From: a virus
Direction: 5' to 3' (one strand)
Length of the DNA stretch: 21,380 nt
IMG/VR virus record: IMGVR_UViG_3300001371_000011
Location: 1 to 21,380 of that record
In this document: piece by piece, positions 2,310 through 19,711 of the stretch
Numbering within the stretch: position 1 is the first letter of the stretch
How the letters are laid out: the number at the start of each line of letters is the position of its first letter
Position numbers and translations under genes: made by a program
The notes under the pieces: model-generated
Databases searched by the model: none
What the model saw: only the letters and a program-made list of their open reading frames with translations
What the model was told of the DNA's origin: nothing

Positions 2310-2821
2310 AAATTGAACACATGCTTATTGTCCTGATTATCATTTTGCTAGTGGTAATTGCCCCCCAGGCCAACCCTGCGGCAAGTCAAGCGGCTGGTGA
2401 TATGCTCAATCCGCCCGTCGATTTCTTGACTGAATTAATTCAAACTGTATTCAATGGCTTATCACAATTTCAGGGTGATTTATGGCAATGGCTTCTAGGC
2501 ACTGGCATATCAATTCCTTTGACGTGGGGGATTGTGGCGGCAATTAAAAAATTACCTCAATTGCAAGCTGTTTCAGGTCAAGTATTGGCGACCATCGTCG
2601 GCTTCATACTCTTTGCGATACTGTATGCCGCACAGCATTTTGGATATAGCTCACAGCATGAAATCGTTATACAGATGGCAGTAGGGATTTTGGCAATTCT
2701 CACGGGTGGGGCAGTCACACAATACGGAGCATCCACAATACACGACAACACGTTAGACACGGTATTATCGCTTTCCTATGATCGTCAAGCTGATTCTGTG
2801 CTGGATGAGCTTAGGACTTGA
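2306..2821 (+). CDS. holin-like multi-pass membrane protein
   Basis: 171 residues; AAGGAGAT precedes the ATG, which overlaps the upstream stop (ATGA). Hydrophobic segments lie at about residues 6-20, 65-80, 92-110 and 120-138, separated by an amphipathic region (39-62) and followed by a charged tail ending DELRT. Size, membrane topology, coupling to a membrane-anchored coiled-coil protein and position at the end of a tail-fibre operon fit a phage holin or holin-like lysis protein, but no endolysin is adjacent in this window. The last codons and stop lie inside the 139-bp repeat that recurs after the sulfotransferase gene, so the 3' end of this gene is the apparent source of that repeat. Other membrane roles are not excluded. 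Confidence 0.55.
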   Translation: MKIEHMLIVLIIILLVVIAPQANPAASQAAGDMLNPPVDFLTELIQTVFNGLSQFQGDLWQWLLGTGISIPLTWGIVAAIKKLPQLQAVSGQVLATIVGFILFAILYAAQHFGYSSQHEIVIQMAVGILAILTGGAVTQYGASTIHDNTLDTVLSLSYDRQADSVLDELRT

Positions 2822-2940
2822 TTTAAGCAATTTTCCAGAGTGTTAAGCTATATACACTGCTAAACATAGTAGGAAACACTGGAAAACACTGTTTCCAGAG
2901 CAAGAAAAGAGAGACTAGATTGATACCTAGTCTCTTTTTT
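2802..2940 (+). repeat. 139-bp direct repeat, copy 1 (gene end + 50-nt core + terminator)
   Basis: About 92% identical, without gaps, to 7445-7583. It begins within the last codons of the holin-like gene, contains the 50-nt core 2816-2865 (shared, in either orientation, by four loci), a weaker hairpin (GGAAACA 2872-2878 / TGTTTCC 2890-2896) and a terminator. The two copies bracket 4.6 kb that includes the glycosyltransferase/sulfotransferase cassette. Confidence 0.9.
2910..2940 (+). terminator. rho-independent terminator, probably bidirectional
   Basis: Perfect 9-bp stem AGAGACTAG (2910-2918) / CTAGTCTCT (2927-2935) with an 8-base loop, followed by T5 and preceded by an A-rich stretch. It closes the plus-strand structural/holin operon and, read backwards, can stop minus-strand transcription from 3259. 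Confidence 0.9.
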
Positions 2941-2986
2941 GTTTTGTCTGAGGATTTTAGCTATGCTTGGTAAGCTGTGAAATCAA

Positions 2987-3572: not shown

Positions 3573-3612
3573 GTAGGCTAGTCTATTTCACTCCCAAAAT
3601 GTTAAGGTGCTA

Positions 3613-3698
3613 GTGCTTAATTTGTCAATGCTTACAGCTTAACAAATAGCTAAAATTCTGTCAAGTGTTTCCTCAAAGCCTGTTAAAATTGATTGAAC
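3613..3698 (-). promoter_or_regulatory. 86-bp regulatory repeat, copy 1
   Basis: Gap-free near-identical copy of 8252-8337. On the minus strand it begins with the last codons FNQF and stop of a gene (intact at 8322, only a remnant here), and then has two TTGACA hexamers that could be -35 boxes. One candidate is the distal TTGACA followed after 18 bases by TAACAT in this copy. It lies upstream of minus-strand genes in both places, so a promoter/leader role is likely. Confidence 0.55.
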
Positions 3699-3727
3699 TT
3701 GATTGAATATTCAATATGACGTATAAT
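3699..3727 (+). promoter_or_regulatory. sigma-70-type promoter of the glycosyltransferase cassette
   Basis: TTGATT (3699-3704), a 17-base spacer and a perfect TATAAT (3722-3727), about 25 bases before the first ribosome site of the cassette. The spacer contains the 14-base palindrome listed next, which suggests repression. Confidence 0.7.
3702..3715. promoter_or_regulatory. palindromic operator candidate in the promoter spacer
   Basis: ATTGAATATTCAAT is an exact 14-base palindrome that overlaps the end of the -35 box and fills most of the spacer. A protein bound here would block RNA polymerase. No second exact copy was noticed in the window. Confidence 0.5.
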
Positions 3728-3751
3728 TCAGGAAACGAAAGGAATTTTCAT

Positions 3752-4357
3752 ATGACATGGGTACAATTGAATGCCCCAATGCAATTTACAACCGCAGGAA
3801 AACCCGTCAATTATCAGATAGGTGATTTTGTTGAAATTCATAACACCAATGAATTGCAGAAATTGACCGCAGATGGCAAAGTACGACCTCTTTATATAGA
3901 TGATATTCTGGCAAATATGAGTGGTGGGCTGGTTGCGCCTTATGCAATCAATAATCTATACAATCTCCCCTTCACGCAATCAGAGCCAGCACCGATATAT
4001 CCACAGACCATTGTTATTAATCAGAGTAAGGGAATGCCAAAGATATTGAGCAATATCGGACGAGCCGCAATCGTGCTGAAATTGCTAAAACGCTATGAAT
4101 TGGTATTGATTATGTCAAGCTATGCGGAACGAGCGTTGCATATTGCGAAGGATGAGCATGAACGCACATTGGCAATTTGTGGTGATCTTCGTATACCGTA
4201 TTATGCGAATATTTTCGGGGTGACTGACAGCAAAAAAGGGAAAGAGTTTTGTGAAGTTTTGAATCAAGAAATGGCATATGGCTCACAGCTTGCAATGGTT
4301 CGCGCATTATATCAAACCATGCCCATCACCTACTACCTGCCAAAGGAATGGCTGTAA
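3752..4357 (+). CDS. unknown protein, first gene of the glycosyl/sulfo-transferase cassette
   Basis: 201 residues. An in-frame ATG occurs at 3716, but it lies at the promoter -10 region and has no ribosome site. The ATG at 3752 follows AAAGGA by about 8 bases and is preferred. The N-terminal 45 residues (MTWVQLNAPMQFTTAGKPV, then QIGDFVEI) read as a small beta-barrel-like domain. A proline-rich linker with P/I/Y residues follows, then a helical C-terminal half with no visible active-site motif. It is not a glycosyltransferase by motif. The stop overlaps the start of the next gene (TAATG), so it is translationally coupled to the first glycosyltransferase and may act as its partner or acceptor. 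Function unknown. Confidence 0.75.
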   Translation: MTWVQLNAPMQFTTAGKPVNYQIGDFVEIHNTNELQKLTADGKVRPLYIDDILANMSGGLVAPYAINNLYNLPFTQSEPAPIYPQTIVINQSKGMPKILSNIGRAAIVLKLLKRYELVLIMSSYAERALHIAKDEHERTLAICGDLRIPYYANIFGVTDSKKGKEFCEVLNQEMAYGSQLAMVRALYQTMPITYYLPKEWL

Positions 4358-4980
4358 TGAATGGAGTGATTTATAGTGCATTTGGAGAAAATGCCAGGAT
4401 GCAGGCATTATTAAGCATCCAAACATTGAAACGCAATAATCCTAACATTGAAATTTGCGTTGTTACGGATGACTCGCAGGTATTTAGGAACGATGTTAAT
4501 CAGACAATACAAGCAGAAAATGACCCATATGGTCGTGAAACAAAATTGGCAATCGACAAATTATCCCCATTCAAGCATACATTATATATGGATGCGGATA
4601 CTCGTGTGCATGGCAAAATTGATTATTTGTTTGAGTGCCTCACAATTGCCGAATTTGTCTGCACAATCAGCGAACAACAAAACGAAAATTGGTTGTGGCA
4701 TATTGATGAGACTGAACGCAATGCAACCTTAAACGAATTACCCTGCTTGCCATTACAGATTCAGGGTGGCTTATTTGCATTCAAAAAATCGCCCAAAGTT
4801 CGCTCTTTTTTCGCAACATGGCGTAAGGAATATGCGCGTTATCCTGCAATTTATGACCAAGCCGCCATGACACGAGCGTTGCATCATGTTCCGCTAAAAA
4901 TGTGGATAGTGGGTCGTGAATTCAATGGGGGTGCGGTGATTCACCACTTGTATGGGAAAGCTCGTCGTGATGCAAAATAA
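4357..4980 (+). CDS. GT-A-fold glycosyltransferase (nucleotide-sugar transferase)
   Basis: 207 residues. The ATG at 4357 overlaps the previous stop (TAATG) and has AAAGGA 9 bases upstream; the in-frame ATG at 4348 lies directly against that site and is unlikely. The N-terminus (NGVIYSAFGENARMQALLS) fits a nucleotide-binding strand-loop-helix. KHTLYMDADTRVHG carries the DxD motif (D79, D81) that binds metal and nucleotide sugar in GT-A enzymes. A QGGLFAF strand, DQAAMTRALHH and a C-terminal HHLYGKARR follow, the latter in the place of the terminal metal-binding histidine of GT8-like enzymes. It is paralogous to the C-terminal half of the next gene. It probably transfers a sugar to an unknown acceptor in the cytoplasm; donor sugar cannot be read from the sequence. 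Confidence 0.85.
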   Translation: MNGVIYSAFGENARMQALLSIQTLKRNNPNIEICVVTDDSQVFRNDVNQTIQAENDPYGRETKLAIDKLSPFKHTLYMDADTRVHGKIDYLFECLTIAEFVCTISEQQNENWLWHIDETERNATLNELPCLPLQIQGGLFAFKKSPKVRSFFATWRKEYARYPAIYDQAAMTRALHHVPLKMWIVGREFNGGAVIHHLYGKARRDAK

Positions 4981-5070
4981 GACCCGTGTCACAAGACAAA
5001 AATGGTCTATTGCCACTGTTTTAAGCTGTCCTATGCTATGCTCTGAATCTGCATTTTGAGCTATTCCATG
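4971..5070 (+). repeat. 100-bp inverted repeat, copy 1
   Basis: 97 of 100 positions match the reverse complement of 13648-13747, without gaps. It covers the last codons and stop of the first glycosyltransferase and ends exactly on the ATG (5068-5070) of the next gene. It may therefore carry a promoter and start region. Confidence 0.95.
5010..5037 (+). promoter_or_regulatory. possible internal promoter in the 100-bp repeat
   Basis: TTGCCA (5010-5015), 16-base spacer, TATGCT (5032-5037), about 30 bases before the fusion glycosyltransferase. It is conserved in the other repeat copy, where it points along the minus strand toward the large minus operon. The -10 box is weak. Confidence 0.35.
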
Positions 5071-6750
5071 CTCTCGTTTACTGCTATTACAATTACTGGC
5101 GAAAATAAAAAAGGTGATGTGATCTCAAGACTGATGGTTGAATTGGCAAACGAAACGGGTTGGTCAATTTCCAAAGCACCTCGCCCCAATGCGGATTTGA
5201 ATTATTTTGGACTTTATATTCAAGTCGCACAGTCACCCCATGTCGTGCAATCATTGAAAAAAACGGCGGCATGGTTCAGCCATTACGAGATTCAGCGCAA
5301 GGATAAAATGGATTGGTGGCACAGTGCCAGCAAGATAGTGGACATTCGCACCACCACAGCCATGCAATATTTTGACTTGCTCAAACCCACTGGCGAAACA
5401 AAATTGGTATTTCCGCCACCCGTTGATTCACAATTCAAACCACGAAAACCACGTATCGGAATTAGCGGATTTGTACACCCGTCGGGTCGTAAGGGGGAGC
5501 ATCTTATCAAGCAATTATTCAGTGATTATGGTAGACATTGGGACATCGTCGCCAGTGGGCAAGGATGGCCTGTCAAAGATTGCAAGCTGCGTGATTGGTC
5601 AGAATTGCCAGCATTTTATCAGAGTTTGGACGTATATCTTGCCACTGGTATAACCGAAGGAATTCCCATGCCACCGCTTGAGGCATTGGCTTGTGGAGTG
5701 CGAATTGTAGTCCCTGAAAATGTCGGCATTTTAGATGGTTTGAGGTCTCATGGTTCATCGGTTTATTATTATCGCCAGAATGATTACGATCATCTGTGCG
5801 AAATTCTGTCGCTTGCTGTCAGTGATGCGATTGGCAAGCATCGACATATTGTGAGCGAATTCAATAGCAAAATGTGGGCATTATCGCATATGCAAGCCTT
5901 CGGGATTGTAGCGGATAAGGTGCAGTCAGTGAGTGTCGCCCCGATTGAAATAATCATGCCCAAAGAACCTGCCCCAATTGCGAAAACTGTGAACCAGTTC
6001 ACGGAGAAATCAGGTGCAATTCTTGTCGCTTATGGTGACCCTGCACGAAAATGCGCTGAACGATTATTGACAAGCTGGTCACGATTCATGCCTGATTATC
6101 CAATTGCCTTAGTCAGCGATTCAGATATTGCAAGCCCTGACAACCATCTATTTATCAATCATGCTGACACGGACATTGGCGCGAGGTCGGTCAAAACGCA
6201 ATTATACTCAATTGCACCGAGCGAATGGGATAATGTGCTATATCTGGATGCTGATACCGAGATCATAGCAGACGTATCACAATTGTTTCGCTGGCTGGAT
6301 TCAGGGTGGGAATTCATAATCTGCACCAATCCATTTGAGCATAAATCATTATTGGATGGCAGACGACCCGACAATGGCGAGGAATTGGATTACACTTTGT
6401 CAATATTGCAAAACGAAGATATTTTACAACCCAACGGGGGAGTATTCGGCTTTCATCGGAATGACCGCACCCAAGTATTTATGGAAACATGGTATACAGA
6501 ATGGCAACGCTGGTCAGCACGAGACCAGATGGCATTATTACGAGCATTGCATCATGTCCCGTTGGCATGGTTGTTGCTCGGCAATGAATGGAATACCATC
6601 ATTCGTTCAGGTGTGGATTTGACTGTGGAAATGAGTGCAGGAATACTGCATTATCCAATGAATGCTAGACGATGGGCTGGTATTATTTATGGGAAATTGG
6701 ACAGTCAAGAGGCTTGGAACCGTGTCAAGGAATGGGAGAGCAAAAAATGA
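5068..6750 (+). CDS. bifunctional glycosyltransferase: GT-B (GT4-like) fused to GT-A domain
   Basis: 560 residues from the ATG at 5068; a TTG at 5056 is in frame but has no ribosome site. Residues about 1-290 are a GT-B domain: GFVHPSGRKGEHL (about 135-147) is the GRKGE loop, and TEGIPMPPLEALACGV (196-211) is the classic E-x7-E donor-phosphate site of GT4 enzymes. A proline-rich linker follows (about 296-310). Residues about 314-560 are a GT-A domain with NVLYLDADTEI (DxD at 394-396), a QPNGGVFGF strand, DQMALLRALHH and ILHYPMNARRW. The second half is clearly paralogous to the preceding gene product. Such a protein could add two sugars in succession to one acceptor. The final stop overlaps the sulfotransferase start (ATGA). 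Confidence 0.85.
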   Translation: MLSFTAITITGENKKGDVISRLMVELANETGWSISKAPRPNADLNYFGLYIQVAQSPHVVQSLKKTAAWFSHYEIQRKDKMDWWHSASKIVDIRTTTAMQYFDLLKPTGETKLVFPPPVDSQFKPRKPRIGISGFVHPSGRKGEHLIKQLFSDYGRHWDIVASGQGWPVKDCKLRDWSELPAFYQSLDVYLATGITEGIPMPPLEALACGVRIVVPENVGILDGLRSHGSSVYYYRQNDYDHLCEILSLAVSDAIGKHRHIVSEFNSKMWALSHMQAFGIVADKVQSVSVAPIEIIMPKEPAPIAKTVNQFTEKSGAILVAYGDPARKCAERLLTSWSRFMPDYPIALVSDSDIASPDNHLFINHADTDIGARSVKTQLYSIAPSEWDNVLYLDADTEIIADVSQLFRWLDSGWEFIICTNPFEHKSLLDGRRPDNGEELDYTLSILQNEDILQPNGGVFGFHRNDRTQVFMETWYTEWQRWSARDQMALLRALHHVPLAWLLLGNEWNTIIRSGVDLTVEMSAGILHYPMNARRWAGIIYGKLDSQEAWNRVKEWESKK

Positions 6751-7451
6751 ACGACTATTATCATCCAAAAAAGTACCTTATCATTGCTAGTATTCGCAGT
6801 GGTGGCACATTATTAAGCCATGCACTGGATAGCCACCCGATGATTCATGCCTACCGGGGCGAATGCTTGCACCATGATGATCCAATTCGTATGGCTGTCC
6901 ATGAACCACTTGACGGATTAAATGCGATACTCAGTCTATACGGCTATCATAGTAATATCGCTAAAATTTCATGGGGTCAATTGATTTCATTTTTTCCTGC
7001 TATCATGCGAATGCAATGGGATGGCATTATTGGATTGAAGCGTAACAATCCAATCCGTGTTTTTGTGAGCGATCAGATTCGCAGACAGGATAAGGAAATG
7101 CTTAATATCGCTCACACGTTCAAAGAGCGACCCAAAGTGCTGATCAAGATCAATCCGCCAGCATTAGCGAATTTTGTCAGTGATTATCAAGAAACAGACA
7201 AGAAAATTACGGGCATTATCAATGACTTGGCAAGCAATCGACTTTTTTTGAGCTATGAACAAATCGAACATGGTTTCTCAGATTTGGTTACCCATAATCT
7301 GTGCAGGTTCTTGGATGTACCAACTAAACAATTTGATTATCACATTATCAAACGCAACCCTTACCAATTGAGCGAATTAATTCAGAACTATAATGATCTC
7401 TATCATTATTTTGAAAATAATCACCCTGAGCTATTATCTTATCTTGGATGA
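6747..7451 (+). CDS. PAPS-dependent sulfotransferase-like protein
   Basis: 234 residues. The ATG at 6747 overlaps the upstream stop (ATGA) and has GGAG 8 bases upstream. Residues 17-31 (RSGGTLLSHALDSHP) match the 5'-phosphosulfate-binding loop of the sulfotransferase superfamily (R-S-G-T-T-L-L..L-x-x-H-P pattern). KRNNPIRVFVSDQIRRQ fits the 3'-phosphate-binding R...S motif. SYEQIE (near residue 169) is the usual 'YE-L' element, and the C-terminal FLDVP is also typical. It would move sulfate from PAPS to a hydroxyl, most likely on the glycan built by the two upstream enzymes. The family usually has about 250-300 residues, so this is short. The acceptor is unknown. Confidence 0.85.
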   Translation: MNDYYHPKKYLIIASIRSGGTLLSHALDSHPMIHAYRGECLHHDDPIRMAVHEPLDGLNAILSLYGYHSNIAKISWGQLISFFPAIMRMQWDGIIGLKRNNPIRVFVSDQIRRQDKEMLNIAHTFKERPKVLIKINPPALANFVSDYQETDKKITGIINDLASNRLFLSYEQIEHGFSDLVTHNLCRFLDVPTKQFDYHIIKRNPYQLSELIQNYNDLYHYFENNHPELLSYLG

Positions 7452-7583
7452 GCTTAGGGCTTGATTTAAGCTGTTTTCCAGAGTGTCAAGCTATATACAC
7501 TGCTAAACATAGTAGGAAACACCGGAAAACACTGTTTCCAGAGCAAGAAAAAAGAGACTAGATTAATATCTGGTCTCTCTTTT
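7445..7583 (+). repeat. 139-bp direct repeat, copy 2
   Basis: Matches 2802-2940 at about 92% without gaps. Here it starts at the last codons of the sulfotransferase gene but in a different reading frame, so the tail of the holin-like gene (GATGAGCTTAGG) is present as non-coding DNA. This indicates that copy 2 was placed here by recombination. The 50-nt core lies at 7459-7508. Confidence 0.9.
7553..7583 (+). terminator. rho-independent terminator between convergent operons
   Basis: AGAGACTAG (7553-7561) pairs with CTGGTCTCT (7570-7578) with one G-T pair; an 8-base loop, T-rich tail and A-rich upstream flank. It should stop both the plus-strand cassette and the minus-strand operon ending at 7612. 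Confidence 0.85.
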
Positions 7584-7611
7584 TGATTTGTGAGGGTCAA
7601 GATTGTGGAAT

Positions 7612-7978: not shown

Positions 7979-8233
7979 TTATGAATTCAATAATGTTTCA
8001 AAGTGATTAAAGAATTTGACATCGAAAAAATCATATGCTTCATTGATTGTGTCTGTGATTTCTTCAATCGGGCAATGTGCATCAATTAAAGTGTAATTGA
8101 CTTCGTAAAAGTAGACTGTGACGGTCACACGGTTATTGTGGAATGTTAGCTCAAATTCTGCGCCATTATCAATTTGGAAAAAAAAGTGCATTTGGGCTAA
8201 ATTTGTTCTTGGGTTGATTGTGTGCTTAATCAT
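7979..8233 (-). CDS. small protein of unknown function, 84 residues
   Basis: The ATG at 8233 has AAAGAG upstream and is preferred to the TTG at 8248, which lies within that site. The product is soluble and beta-rich (AQMHFFFQIDNGAEFELTF, then VTVTVYFYEVNYTL) followed by an acidic helix with two D-F-F/F-F motifs. No family was recognised. It is the first gene after the 86-bp regulatory repeat at 8252-8337, so it may be driven from its own promoter as well as by readthrough. Confidence 0.7.
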   Translation of the reverse strand: MIKHTINPRTNLAQMHFFFQIDNGAEFELTFHNNRVTVTVYFYEVNYTLIDAHCPIEEITDTINEAYDFFDVKFFNHFETLLNS

Positions 8234-8251
8234 GTCGGTCTCTTTCAATCT

Positions 8252-8337
8252 GTGCTTAACTTGTCAATGCTTACAGCTTAACATAGATTTAAAATCTTGT
8301 CAAGTATTTCCTCAAAGCCTGTTAAAATTGATTAAAC
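8252..8337 (-). promoter_or_regulatory. 86-bp regulatory repeat, copy 2
   Basis: Gap-free match to 3613-3698. On the minus strand it contains the final codons (FNQF) and TAA of the 139-residue gene, then TTGACA-AGATTTTAAATC-TATGTT and a second TTGACA. Spacing of these boxes is not ideal (12 bases for the first pair). Conservation in two places between unrelated flanks supports a regulatory role. Confidence 0.5.
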
Positions 8338-8741
8338 TCTGGTGGTGAATCAAGCAAACCATCCCTAATCGCTGCCCCAATTTCTCTGAATTTATCGGTA
8401 ATTATCCATGCTCCACATTCTAGCCGAAGATAATCATCGGCTGGCACGATATATTCATGCAGTGCAAGCCAGCGAAATGCTTCGGGATACAATTCCCACC
8501 CACCGATTTCCTCCCGGCAGCATCGTGCATATGATTTCAGATCAAGCAATACATGATATTCGCTATAGCCAAACTCATCAGATGAGATTAAGCGATTATC
8601 CTCATCAAAAATTGAATAACTATCGTGATCTAATTGATTGTGAATCGCTCTCCCTGCATCACGTTTTGCTTGCTTCAAATCTTGATAATAGCTTGTCTCA
8701 ATACGCCCAAACCGTCTTGATTCATAGATTACGGTATACAT
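8322..8741 (-). CDS. unknown soluble protein, 139 residues
   Basis: The ATG at 8741 is preceded by AAGGAG at 6 bases, which decides the start over upstream in-frame codons. The N-terminal part (MYTVIYESRRFGRIETSYY) predicts strands followed by an amphipathic helix (DLKQAKRDAGRAIHNQL); the middle is acidic (FDEDNRLISSDEFGYSEY). The C-terminal half has several W residues. No family or active site was recognised. Its last codons lie within the 86-bp repeat; a remnant of the same 3' end is left at 3682-3698. Confidence 0.7.
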   Translation of the reverse strand: MYTVIYESRRFGRIETSYYQDLKQAKRDAGRAIHNQLDHDSYSIFDEDNRLISSDEFGYSEYHVLLDLKSYARCCREEIGGWELYPEAFRWLALHEYIVPADDYLRLECGAWIITDKFREIGAAIRDGLLDSPPEFNQF

Positions 8742-10952: not shown

Positions 10953-11828
10953 TCATGATTTTGTTTTTAGCCAAGCATTCTTTTCCTCAGAGATTAATCC
11001 CAAACTCACACCCCCCATCTGTTCGCTAATCTCTTTCAATGATAGTTCATTTGGGTGGTCATGAGCATTCAAAAAATCGTGAACACGTTGTCGTGCAGGT
11101 GTCTTGGGTTTCATGGGTTCATGAACTTCATGAATGATTTCATGAACCCGATGTGATTTCACAGGTTTCATGAAATTTTCATGAAGCATATTATCGAGAT
11201 TATCAGCGATTCCACGACGTTTCTTATAGATTGCCCATGCACGATCCTTCTTGCTTTCGTACTCATCTATTTCGATAGCGTAGGTCAGTGGCAATAATGC
11301 CAGCACTGCACCAGCCGCCGTTTGGGTTATGAACGGGGCAAGACTGAGAAACGTTGCCACCAGCAGTGAAATAACCCACCCAACACCTGTCGATTTATCA
11401 ATCACCCCATAGCCATCATAGATTATCAAAATATTGGTAAGGATGCTGGTAATGCCGCCAAAAATGGCAATCATGCCCATTGCCTTCATGATTTCAGATA
11501 GATCAAGGTTGTCAATTTGCGTCTTGCTTGTGTAATGTGCCGACACAATCCAATAGGTTGCCACAAACACCAGAACGTCAATCAAAATCCAACCCAAAAA
11601 ACCAGCAAGCAGACTGATTACATCATGCAATGTACCCATTGCCCATTGCGCTCGGAATGCAAACTGAATCGCAGGAATTGTGGTCATAGAGGAAAGCAAT
11701 AAACTGGCAATTAATGATACAACCATAACAGCCATAATCATTCTGTTTTTTTGCTGTGGCTGCGGCTTACGCCGTTCATAATCCGCCTCAAAAATTTGGT
11801 ATAATTTTTGCTCCCGATCAAGATTCAT
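10953..11828 (-). CDS. polytopic membrane protein with C-terminal cytoplasmic HTH-like tail
   Basis: 291 residues; the ATG at 11828 overlaps the upstream gene by 11 bases. Hydrophobic segments lie at about residues 30-48, 66-84, 86-98, 115-137 and 149-185 (the last long enough for two), giving five or six membrane passes. A charged region (187-245) follows, with a H/V/E/M repeat around 218-242. The last 45 residues (RQRVHDFLNAHDHPNELSLK, then EISEQMG) resemble a short winged-helix domain. No family was named; membrane tethering of a DNA-binding tail could link replication or sensing to the membrane. Five TTCATGAA palindromes lie in the codons of the charged region. Confidence 0.6.
   Translation of the reverse strand: MNLDREQKLYQIFEADYERRKPQPQQKNRMIMAVMVVSLIASLLLSSMTTIPAIQFAFRAQWAMGTLHDVISLLAGFLGWILIDVLVFVATYWIVSAHYTSKTQIDNLDLSEIMKAMGMIAIFGGITSILTNILIIYDGYGVIDKSTGVGWVISLLVATFLSLAPFITQTAAGAVLALLPLTYAIEIDEYESKKDRAWAIYKKRRGIADNLDNMLHENFMKPVKSHRVHEIIHEVHEPMKPKTPARQRVHDFLNAHDHPNELSLKEISEQMGGVSLGLISEEKNAWLKTKS
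11118..11185. repeat. cluster of five TTCATGAA palindromes
   Basis: Exact 8-base palindromes at 11118, 11127, 11139, 11167 and 11178 (first bases), all within 68 bp of the coding sequence of the membrane protein. A partial copy (TTTCATGGG) precedes them. They encode the H-E / M-K pattern on the minus strand. They could be protein-driven or a set of binding sites. Confidence 0.8.
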
Positions 11829-12420
11829 GATTCAATCTTTTCCCCAATATGCTTGTTAGGTCAATCATTTCTCGGATTTTATTCGCTTGCCACAGAAGGG
11901 TTTCTGCACAGATTTCGTCTGTGATCGCTTTGCCATTTTCACGATAATTCGTCTTGGTCACAGATTCCCCCGCCATCGCTACATACATAAGATCATCCCA
12001 CGCGACCATCCAAGCAGATTCCCAATCACTGCCACGACCAATTGCCCGTATATCGTCATTCGCTGCCTCACGAGCAAGGTGTAAGGCATTTTGAACCTCA
12101 AATCTTCCAATGGATTCACCACCTGCTATCTGCCGTTTCAAATCAATGAATGCCAGACTGCGATAGTCATGAATCAGATCGAAAACAGTCAAACCATTTA
12201 ACAATGGTTGTTCTAACATAGCCACTTGCAACGCAAAGTTTTGCGAACGGGAAATAAGACCCAATTGGTCAATTATCCATATCATCCAGTCCCCTCGTGG
12301 GCAATTTTCCCATGCTTGTGAAACAGACGTTTGGGTCTTGAGCCATTCAATCCCCTCATTACATGGATTATGAATATATTGGAATTTTGTACTGAGTAGA
12401 TAATCTATCGTTATTGTCAT
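11818..12420 (-). CDS. CNEG-family protein, copy 1 (200 residues)
   Basis: ATG at 12420 with AAGGA 8 bases upstream. The N-terminal half shares the signature HNPCNEGIEWL...AWENCPRGDWM with the gene at 19271. A conserved C-x4-W...AW-x2-C-x-R-x-D-W-M core of this type occurs in small phage and bacterial proteins, often with repetitive Ala-rich helices, but no activity is established that I can name. The C-terminal half differs from the other copy, with a LAREAANDDIRAIGRGSDWES segment and an AWDDLMYVAMAG segment in helical repeats. Stretches of 51 and 35 bases of the DNA are identical to the copy at 19271, so duplication was recent. It is preceded by the 116-bp repeat. Confidence 0.7.
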   Translation of the reverse strand: MTITIDYLLSTKFQYIHNPCNEGIEWLKTQTSVSQAWENCPRGDWMIWIIDQLGLISRSQNFALQVAMLEQPLLNGLTVFDLIHDYRSLAFIDLKRQIAGGESIGRFEVQNALHLAREAANDDIRAIGRGSDWESAWMVAWDDLMYVAMAGESVTKTNYRENGKAITDEICAETLLWQANKIREMIDLTSILGKRLNHES

Positions 12421-19270: not shown

Positions 19271-19711
19271 ATGATTACTTTAAAATACCTGCTTGGTGAA
19301 AAATTCCAATATATTCATAATCCATGTAATGAGGGGATTGAATGGCTCAATGCCCAAACCACTTTGGAGCAAGCATGGGAAAATTGCCCACGAGGGGACT
19401 GGATGCTCTGGTTGCTTGGTGAGCTAAACCTGCTCACAGAACAACAAGAGCTTGCGTTGCAAGTGGCTATGTTAGAAACCCCTCTGGCTGATGGACGTAA
19501 GGTGCTAGACCTCATCACTGACCCTCGCAGTCTGGCATTCATTGATTTGAAACGCCAGCGACTTTCTGGTGTTGAAATTGATGCTGCGTCTTGGGGTGTG
19601 ACTAGGTCTGCGGCTAGTGATGCGGCTAGGGGGTGGCAAGCGGAGAAGGTTCGTGAAATTGTACCATTTAGTATTAGTATATTTGGAGAAAACGATGACA
19701 CCACAGATTGA
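19271..19711 (+). CDS. CNEG-family protein, copy 2 (146 residues)
   Basis: ATG at 19271 with AAGGCG about 9 bases upstream. The N-terminal half matches copy 1 (12420, minus strand): FQYIHNPCNEGIEWLNAQTT, AWENCPRGDWMLWLL, ALQVAMLE and DPRSLAFIDLKRQ. The copies then differ, and this one lacks about 50 residues of the C-terminal helical region, though both end in a related QAxKIRE/QAEKVRE segment. DNA stretches of 51, 35 and about 24 bases are identical to copy 1, much closer than the rest. The tail overlaps the start of the next gene by 17 bases. Confidence 0.7.
   Translation: MITLKYLLGEKFQYIHNPCNEGIEWLNAQTTLEQAWENCPRGDWMLWLLGELNLLTEQQELALQVAMLETPLADGRKVLDLITDPRSLAFIDLKRQRLSGVEIDAASWGVTRSAASDAARGWQAEKVREIVPFSISIFGENDDTTD

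Follow-up and report, generated by a model that had tools for sequence, protein, structure and literature searches.

The window analysed here, a 21,380-base stretch of DNA (bases 1-21380 of the 38,007-base IMG/VR record IMGVR_UViG_3300001371_000011), comes from an uncultured tailed phage and carries at 3752-7451 a cassette of four open reading frames, g1, g2, g3 and g4, predicted to encode glycosyltransferase-related proteins and an enzyme of the type that uses 3'-phosphoadenosine-5'-phosphosulfate (PAPS). All four reading frames are present, as a first-pass annotation had described, and their order recurs in many other phages. The cassette genes are:

3752..4357, plus strand: g1, putative GT-A-derived protein without a DxD motif, with a small N-terminal beta domain (profile-profile comparison, model)
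4357..4980, plus strand: g2, predicted single-domain GT-A glycosyltransferase, DxD motif DADT
5068..6750, plus strand: g3, predicted GT4-type GT-B half (E-x7-E) fused to a GT-A domain (DADT)
6747..7451, plus strand: g4, predicted PAPS-type sulfotransferase (AlphaFold2 model, PDB matches, motifs)

The start of g1 was refined to the ATG at 3752, which is preceded by AGGAA; an ATG at 3716 was rejected because it overlaps the -10 element TATAAT (3722-3727). For g2, starting at ATG 4357, the alternative ATG 4348 was discarded, as its ribosome-binding site would not fit. The overlaps reported in the first-pass annotation hold, with TAATG joining the g1 stop to g2 and ATGA joining the g3 stop to g4 (ATG 6747), while g3 starts at ATG 5068 in a start-codon region supplied by a repeat, described below as repeat R. 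The motifs were likewise found as reported: DADT in g2 and in the C-terminal GT-A domain of g3 (g3C), E-x7-E in the N-terminal half of g3 (g3N), and RSGGTLLSHALDSHP in g4.

g2 and g3C share 34% identity, and D82 and D84 of their DxD motif are invariant across 14 alignment rows. The single-protein Pfam score of g2 against PF03407 (E 9.6e-4) was under the cut-off, and the combined g2/g3C profile matched glycogenins (glycogenin-2, E 7.6e-6); the DxD motif and profile similarity together identify g2 and the C-terminal half of g3 as GT-A glycosyltransferases. g3 scored 34.7 bits against PF00534 (cut-off 26.4 bits, E 1.6e-8), its profile matched the GT4 structure 5i45 (E 5e-8), and its E-x7-E reads E-G-I-P-M-P-P-L-E, with E197 and E205 invariant in a 13-member alignment, pointing to a GT4-type GT-B glycosyltransferase in the N-terminal half. 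Full-length g3 relatives in 12 aligned phage loci are 36-44% identical. The g1 family profile matched that of the g2/g3C family (probability 97.9, E 3.1e-13, 125 columns), and in the g1 model (predicted local distance difference test score, pLDDT, 82) residues 47-201 resemble GT-A/nucleotidyltransferase folds with moderate Z scores of up to 7.6, so that g1, initially listed as an unknown protein, is rather a GT-A relative without DxD. Because a complete DxD is missing at the corresponding position from all 14 aligned members of the g1 family, g1 is most likely a non-catalytic partner or acceptor adaptor.

For g4, an AlphaFold2 model was produced from a 14-member alignment (pLDDT 88.7, predicted template modelling score 0.86). 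The top PDB match was the trehalose sulfotransferase Stf0 (Z 12.6, 3.7 Å over 194 residues), followed by the tyrosylprotein sulfotransferases TPST1/2 (Z 12.1-12.4, TPST1 12.4) and heparan sulfate 3-O-sulfotransferases (Z 11.2-11.8), and sulfotransferases made up nearly all of the 50 PDB entries listed. The P-loop RSGGT and the R-x8-S 3'-phosphate motif of g4 align with those of Stf0 at equal spacing, R99 and S108 lying within the stretch aligned to HRPDVVSQAVS of Stf0. Twelve of the 14 g4-family members match PF13469 (E<=0.01, best 2.5e-8); a phmmer search of the PDB with g4 alone returned chance matches only, and no sulfotransferase family was matched in PHROG. By this prediction g4 has the fold of PAPS enzymes, and it probably acts as a sulfotransferase. 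Profile, motif and structural-model searches together support the glycosyltransferase and sulfotransferase identities first proposed for the cassette.

Relatives were found by alignments alone, single-protein scans of viral contigs with g2, g3 and g4 having returned none. Profile searches gave about 60 further loci with a related set; the g2 plus g3C alignment search yielded 35 viral loci, the g4-family alignment 15 loci, and the g3 alignment, searched against genome bins, 11 loci, 6 of them from Chloroflexota. No relative of the g3 or g4 family was found in 50,697 phage records, tblastn included; phage isolate collections likewise lacked matches to both families, and g2 yielded only weak ones there (Synechococcus phage ACG-2014f, E 0.1). 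Gene order at these loci was read by profile hidden Markov models, and the 56 loci with a g3 N-terminal domain were reduced to 40 non-redundant groups at 85% identity. A major capsid protein (MCP) gene was on the contig in 38 of the 40 groups, and in all 37 MCP-bearing groups besides the window the MCP gene is followed downstream by g3, at <=200 bp in 25, at <=3.5 kb in 36 and at 4.8 kb in the farthest; six of these MCPs were checked and confirmed by PF05065. This adjacency is not built into the sample, because loci were picked by similarity to g3 or g4 and not by capsid genes. The window phage is the sole exception: its cassette closes the late region, and a methyltransferase gene remains at the MCP site. 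An insertion private to this phage was rejected on the synteny survey, and the set was not encountered in hosts with an unrelated role: the surroundings of g3, where annotatable, are a phage head module, apart from L061, whose neighbours included no recognisable capsid gene.

Several loci bear on joint action of the genes. At L024, g3N, g3C, g4 and a methyltransferase are joined by 4-nt overlaps each, and at L056 (contig binned as Anaerolineae) the MCP, a gene of the type found directly behind the MCP here (contig 32312-32734), g1, g2, g3 and the start of g4 follow one another in window order at 28-42% identity. Together with the conserved order in independent phages, these arrangements support the earlier proposal that the genes act in one pathway. 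The equivalent locus L006 has a different sulfotransferase (PF13469, E 2e-25), a GT2 glycosyltransferase, methyltransferases and a further glycosyltransferase, and G002 (L067, G002:C1:18000-34000) has a very long glycan-type locus behind capsid genes with several further enzymes, among them a uridine diphosphate (UDP)-sugar dehydrogenase, another sulfotransferase and an epimerase-like protein (GxxGxxG start, by eye). Since the sulfotransferases in L006 and G002 are different ones, such enzymes have been recruited into the locus more than once, and this repeated recruitment is the strongest argument for sulfate being part of the product. As a separate observation, in the protein encoded by L007:8089-9168 the methyltransferase is fused with a kinase domain of the P-loop type, whose matches are chloramphenicol phosphotransferase-like (1.2e-7) and adenosine 5'-phosphosulfate kinase (1.8e-4).

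g4 is present in 13 groups, with at least 7 changes between presence and absence along the g3 tree. This distribution bears on whether g4 might be a protein (tyrosine) sulfotransferase that modifies a virion protein without any link to the glycosyltransferases, as its TPST1/2 scores, as high as that of Stf0, would allow; but g4, though gained and lost, is confined to glycan loci, and its 3'-phosphate motif has the spacing of a trehalose sulfotransferase, which makes this reading quite unlikely.

Three kinds of repeat (T, P and R) recur across the genome, with the following copies:

2802..2963, plus strand: repeat T copy 1, terminator unit with a stem-loop, following gene 2306-2821, 93% identical to 7445-7583, terminator-like stem at 2905-2940
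7445..7592, plus strand: repeat T copy 2, terminator immediately behind g4
22989-23142 and 32733-32886, both minus strand: further copies of repeat T
3612..3735, plus strand: repeat P copy 1, the unit with the g1 promoter (TTGATT-17-TATAAT, 3699-3727)
8226..8341, plus strand: repeat P copy 2, completing a direct-repeat pair around the cassette
22206-22096, minus strand, and 33127-33257: further copies of repeat P
4971..5079, plus strand: repeat R, control element that also provides the start-codon region of g3
13750-13637, minus strand: repeat R before a minus-strand gene
27126-27271: repeat R before the portal gene
36215-36430: repeat R before the tail tube/major tail protein gene

The control region ascribed to the cassette in the first-pass annotation is real, although it consists of genome-wide repeats. 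A single promoter shared by all four genes, as also claimed there, is unsupported, because repeat R, with a promoter-like TTGCCA-16-TATGCT, separates g2 from g3; judged from these elements, g3 and g4 may be co-expressed with the structural genes, separately from g1 and g2. TATAAT is retained in two P copies only, before g1 and before the 33264/methyltransferase module adjoining the MCP. The direct pairs around the cassette have start-to-start spacings of 4639 (P) and 4643 (T), and T and P units also occur at the MCP site, exactly where other phages hold the cassette, which was probably relocated from an ancestral place behind the MCP to its present site through recombination between terminator/promoter units. 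An assembly misjoin via the repeats is unlikely, the longest exact shared stretches being only 50-57 nt. An Rfam search found nothing. Elsewhere, a 29-nt intergenic element with core AAAGGCGCTTTCGACGAGGCGCTTT, a candidate terminator or binding site, occurs in four copies (17569, 18340, 20059, 21060) in the replication region.

With its own promoter and terminator the cassette in the window forms a separate moron-like unit, and phages are able to alter the serotype of their host through glycosyltransferases (Markine-Goriaynoff et al. 2004, cited in PMC10955285). The cassette might on these grounds alter host surface glycans during infection or lysogeny (capsule or O-antigen-like conversion, superinfection exclusion). 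In the relatives, however, the set lies inside the head gene module adjoining the MCP, with no lysogeny genes next to it in the parts that were read, and a search by Pfam, not exhaustive, recognised none of the examined cassette genes as a flippase or as GtrA/GtrB-type; such a role is unlikely.

The remainder of the record supplies the genome setting, with these genes beyond the window:

same record: large terminase
contig 27350-29647: HK97-type portal
contig 29884-30975: maturation protease
contig 30965-32275: major capsid protein
contig 32312-32734: 140-aa protein, phrog_28483 (no function known), directly behind the MCP
contig 33525-33980: S-adenosylmethionine (SAM) methyltransferase
contig 33985-34653: head-tail adaptor
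contig 36510-36953: major tail protein

A second contig, L005, duplicates 30427-38007 at 99.9%. Relatives of the 32312-32734 protein occur mostly in loci with a single-domain g2 and a long-form g1, and the protein may be a glycan acceptor. The genes 11818-12420 (minus strand) and 19271-19711 (plus strand) form a paralogous pair on opposite strands, with DNA 75-79% identical over long stretches.

The contig also encodes a DNA methylase and a ParB-like protein, and glycosyltransferases and sulfotransferases have been linked to DNA hypermodification systems in a computational proposal (Iyer et al. 2013, cited in PMC10829341), so modification of the phage DNA, with a hypermodified base glycosylated and sulfated, was considered. 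A thymidylate-synthase-type enzyme (PF00303), however, is absent from the nine group contigs, which are incomplete, with the control working, and no TET/JBP match (PF12851) was obtained on the incomplete contigs, though there the control was silent. The locus is tied to capsid genes rather than to DNA metabolism genes, and the fused glycosyltransferase and the long cassettes with UDP-sugar dehydrogenase resemble glycan synthesis, making a DNA target very unlikely. The start of the DNA methylase gene (PF01555, contig 21372-21989) is uncertain, as the gene enters a gap of 28 N at 21381-21408.

The cassette is best read as the main part of a virion-decoration module that places methylated, often sulfated glycans on capsid proteins, a reading to which we assign a probability of about 0.58. 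g2 and both halves of g3 would transfer sugars in succession to a protein of the virion, the likeliest candidates being the HK97-fold capsid protein and the small protein whose gene directly follows, with g1 as non-catalytic partner or acceptor adaptor; host PAPS would supply the sulfate that g4 places on the glycan, and methylation of the glycan would fall to the SAM methyltransferase encoded beside the capsid gene. What the analysis establishes are the enzyme folds and motifs, the conserved order, the proximity to capsid genes and the repeats; action in one chain, the protein acceptor, sulfation of sugar instead of tyrosine, the part played by g1 and the relocation are deduced from these. 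The virion is the likeliest target because of the MCP adjacency in 37 other groups, the shared control elements (P with TATAAT common to the cassette and the methyltransferase module; R common to g3, portal and tail tube) and the capsid glycosylation of mycobacteriophages Che8 and Rita. Among the targets named in the first-pass annotation (virion, DNA or host surface) the virion is thus favoured, and that interpretation as a whole is partly supported.

Several points weigh against virion decoration by sulfated capsid glycans. The cassette in the window is not beside the MCP and sits two genes behind a tail-fibre-like gene (771-1634), making a tail target possible, and the 28-N gap, the single scaffold gap in the record, intervenes between the window and the head genes. 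Neighbourhood indicates co-inheritance, not substrate, and the acceptor, sugar and sulfate are predictions from the genes. g4 by itself matches PF13469 weakly, at 13.6 of 27 bits (E 0.083) and under the Pfam cut-off, and the structure scores cannot separate carbohydrate from tyrosine sulfotransferases (Z 12.6 versus 12.4).

More broadly, and as a tentative extension somewhat short of even odds, uncultured phages forming a large group, in part probably with Chloroflexota hosts, may coat their capsids with methylated sulfated glycans, using g1 as acceptor adaptor. If virion decoration is correct, this would be the first case of a phage particle sulfated by virus-encoded enzymes; as far as could be found in the literature, sulfate on the virus particle has been demonstrated for no phage. 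A negatively charged glycan coat could alter adsorption, particle stability or diffusion, and the fixed place of a sulfotransferase family in a capsid-linked glycan locus makes phage sulfotransferase function testable.

Among known systems, the repeats recall the mobile regulatory cassettes of T4-type phages (Arbiol et al. 2010, cited in PMC4177764); the likeness is one of description, not sequence, the phage group is different, and the window has three repeat kinds. In the T4-type cassettes, repeats carrying a promoter and a stem-loop reportedly lie on either side of gene modules that can be exchanged. g4 shares its fold, P-loop RSG-T and R-x8-S with the Stf0-type PAPS sulfotransferases (Mycobacterium Stf0, PDB 1TEX; PF13469), at about 16% identity over the structural alignment, and differs in being phage-encoded. 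Sulfotransferases also occur in other phage genomes, namely as Sulfotransfer_3 genes in OM43-type marine phages and cyanophage S-SRM01, whose function the authors call unclear (PMC10580990); these are likened by gene presence, not genomic context, whereas the g4 family is tied to one position, within a glycan locus linked to the capsid genes. The capsid glycosylation reported for Che8 and Rita (PMC11256854, citing Freeman et al. 2023) likewise involves phage-encoded glycosyltransferases and a capsid protein target, presumed here. tblastn found no g3 or g4 homologue in the 50,697 phage records, remote homology being possible, and in the related phage Maravista the glycosyltransferase genes are near the 3' end of the genome, whereas here they lie behind the MCP in most relatives. 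Phage virion glycosylation is known from a few cases, to which the module would add a second gene set, one without detectable sequence similarity; virion glycosylation is of a known kind, the predicted sulfation is the part of interest, and it is the sulfotransferase and the fused GT4-GT-A protein that the cassette has in addition to the Che8/Rita system.

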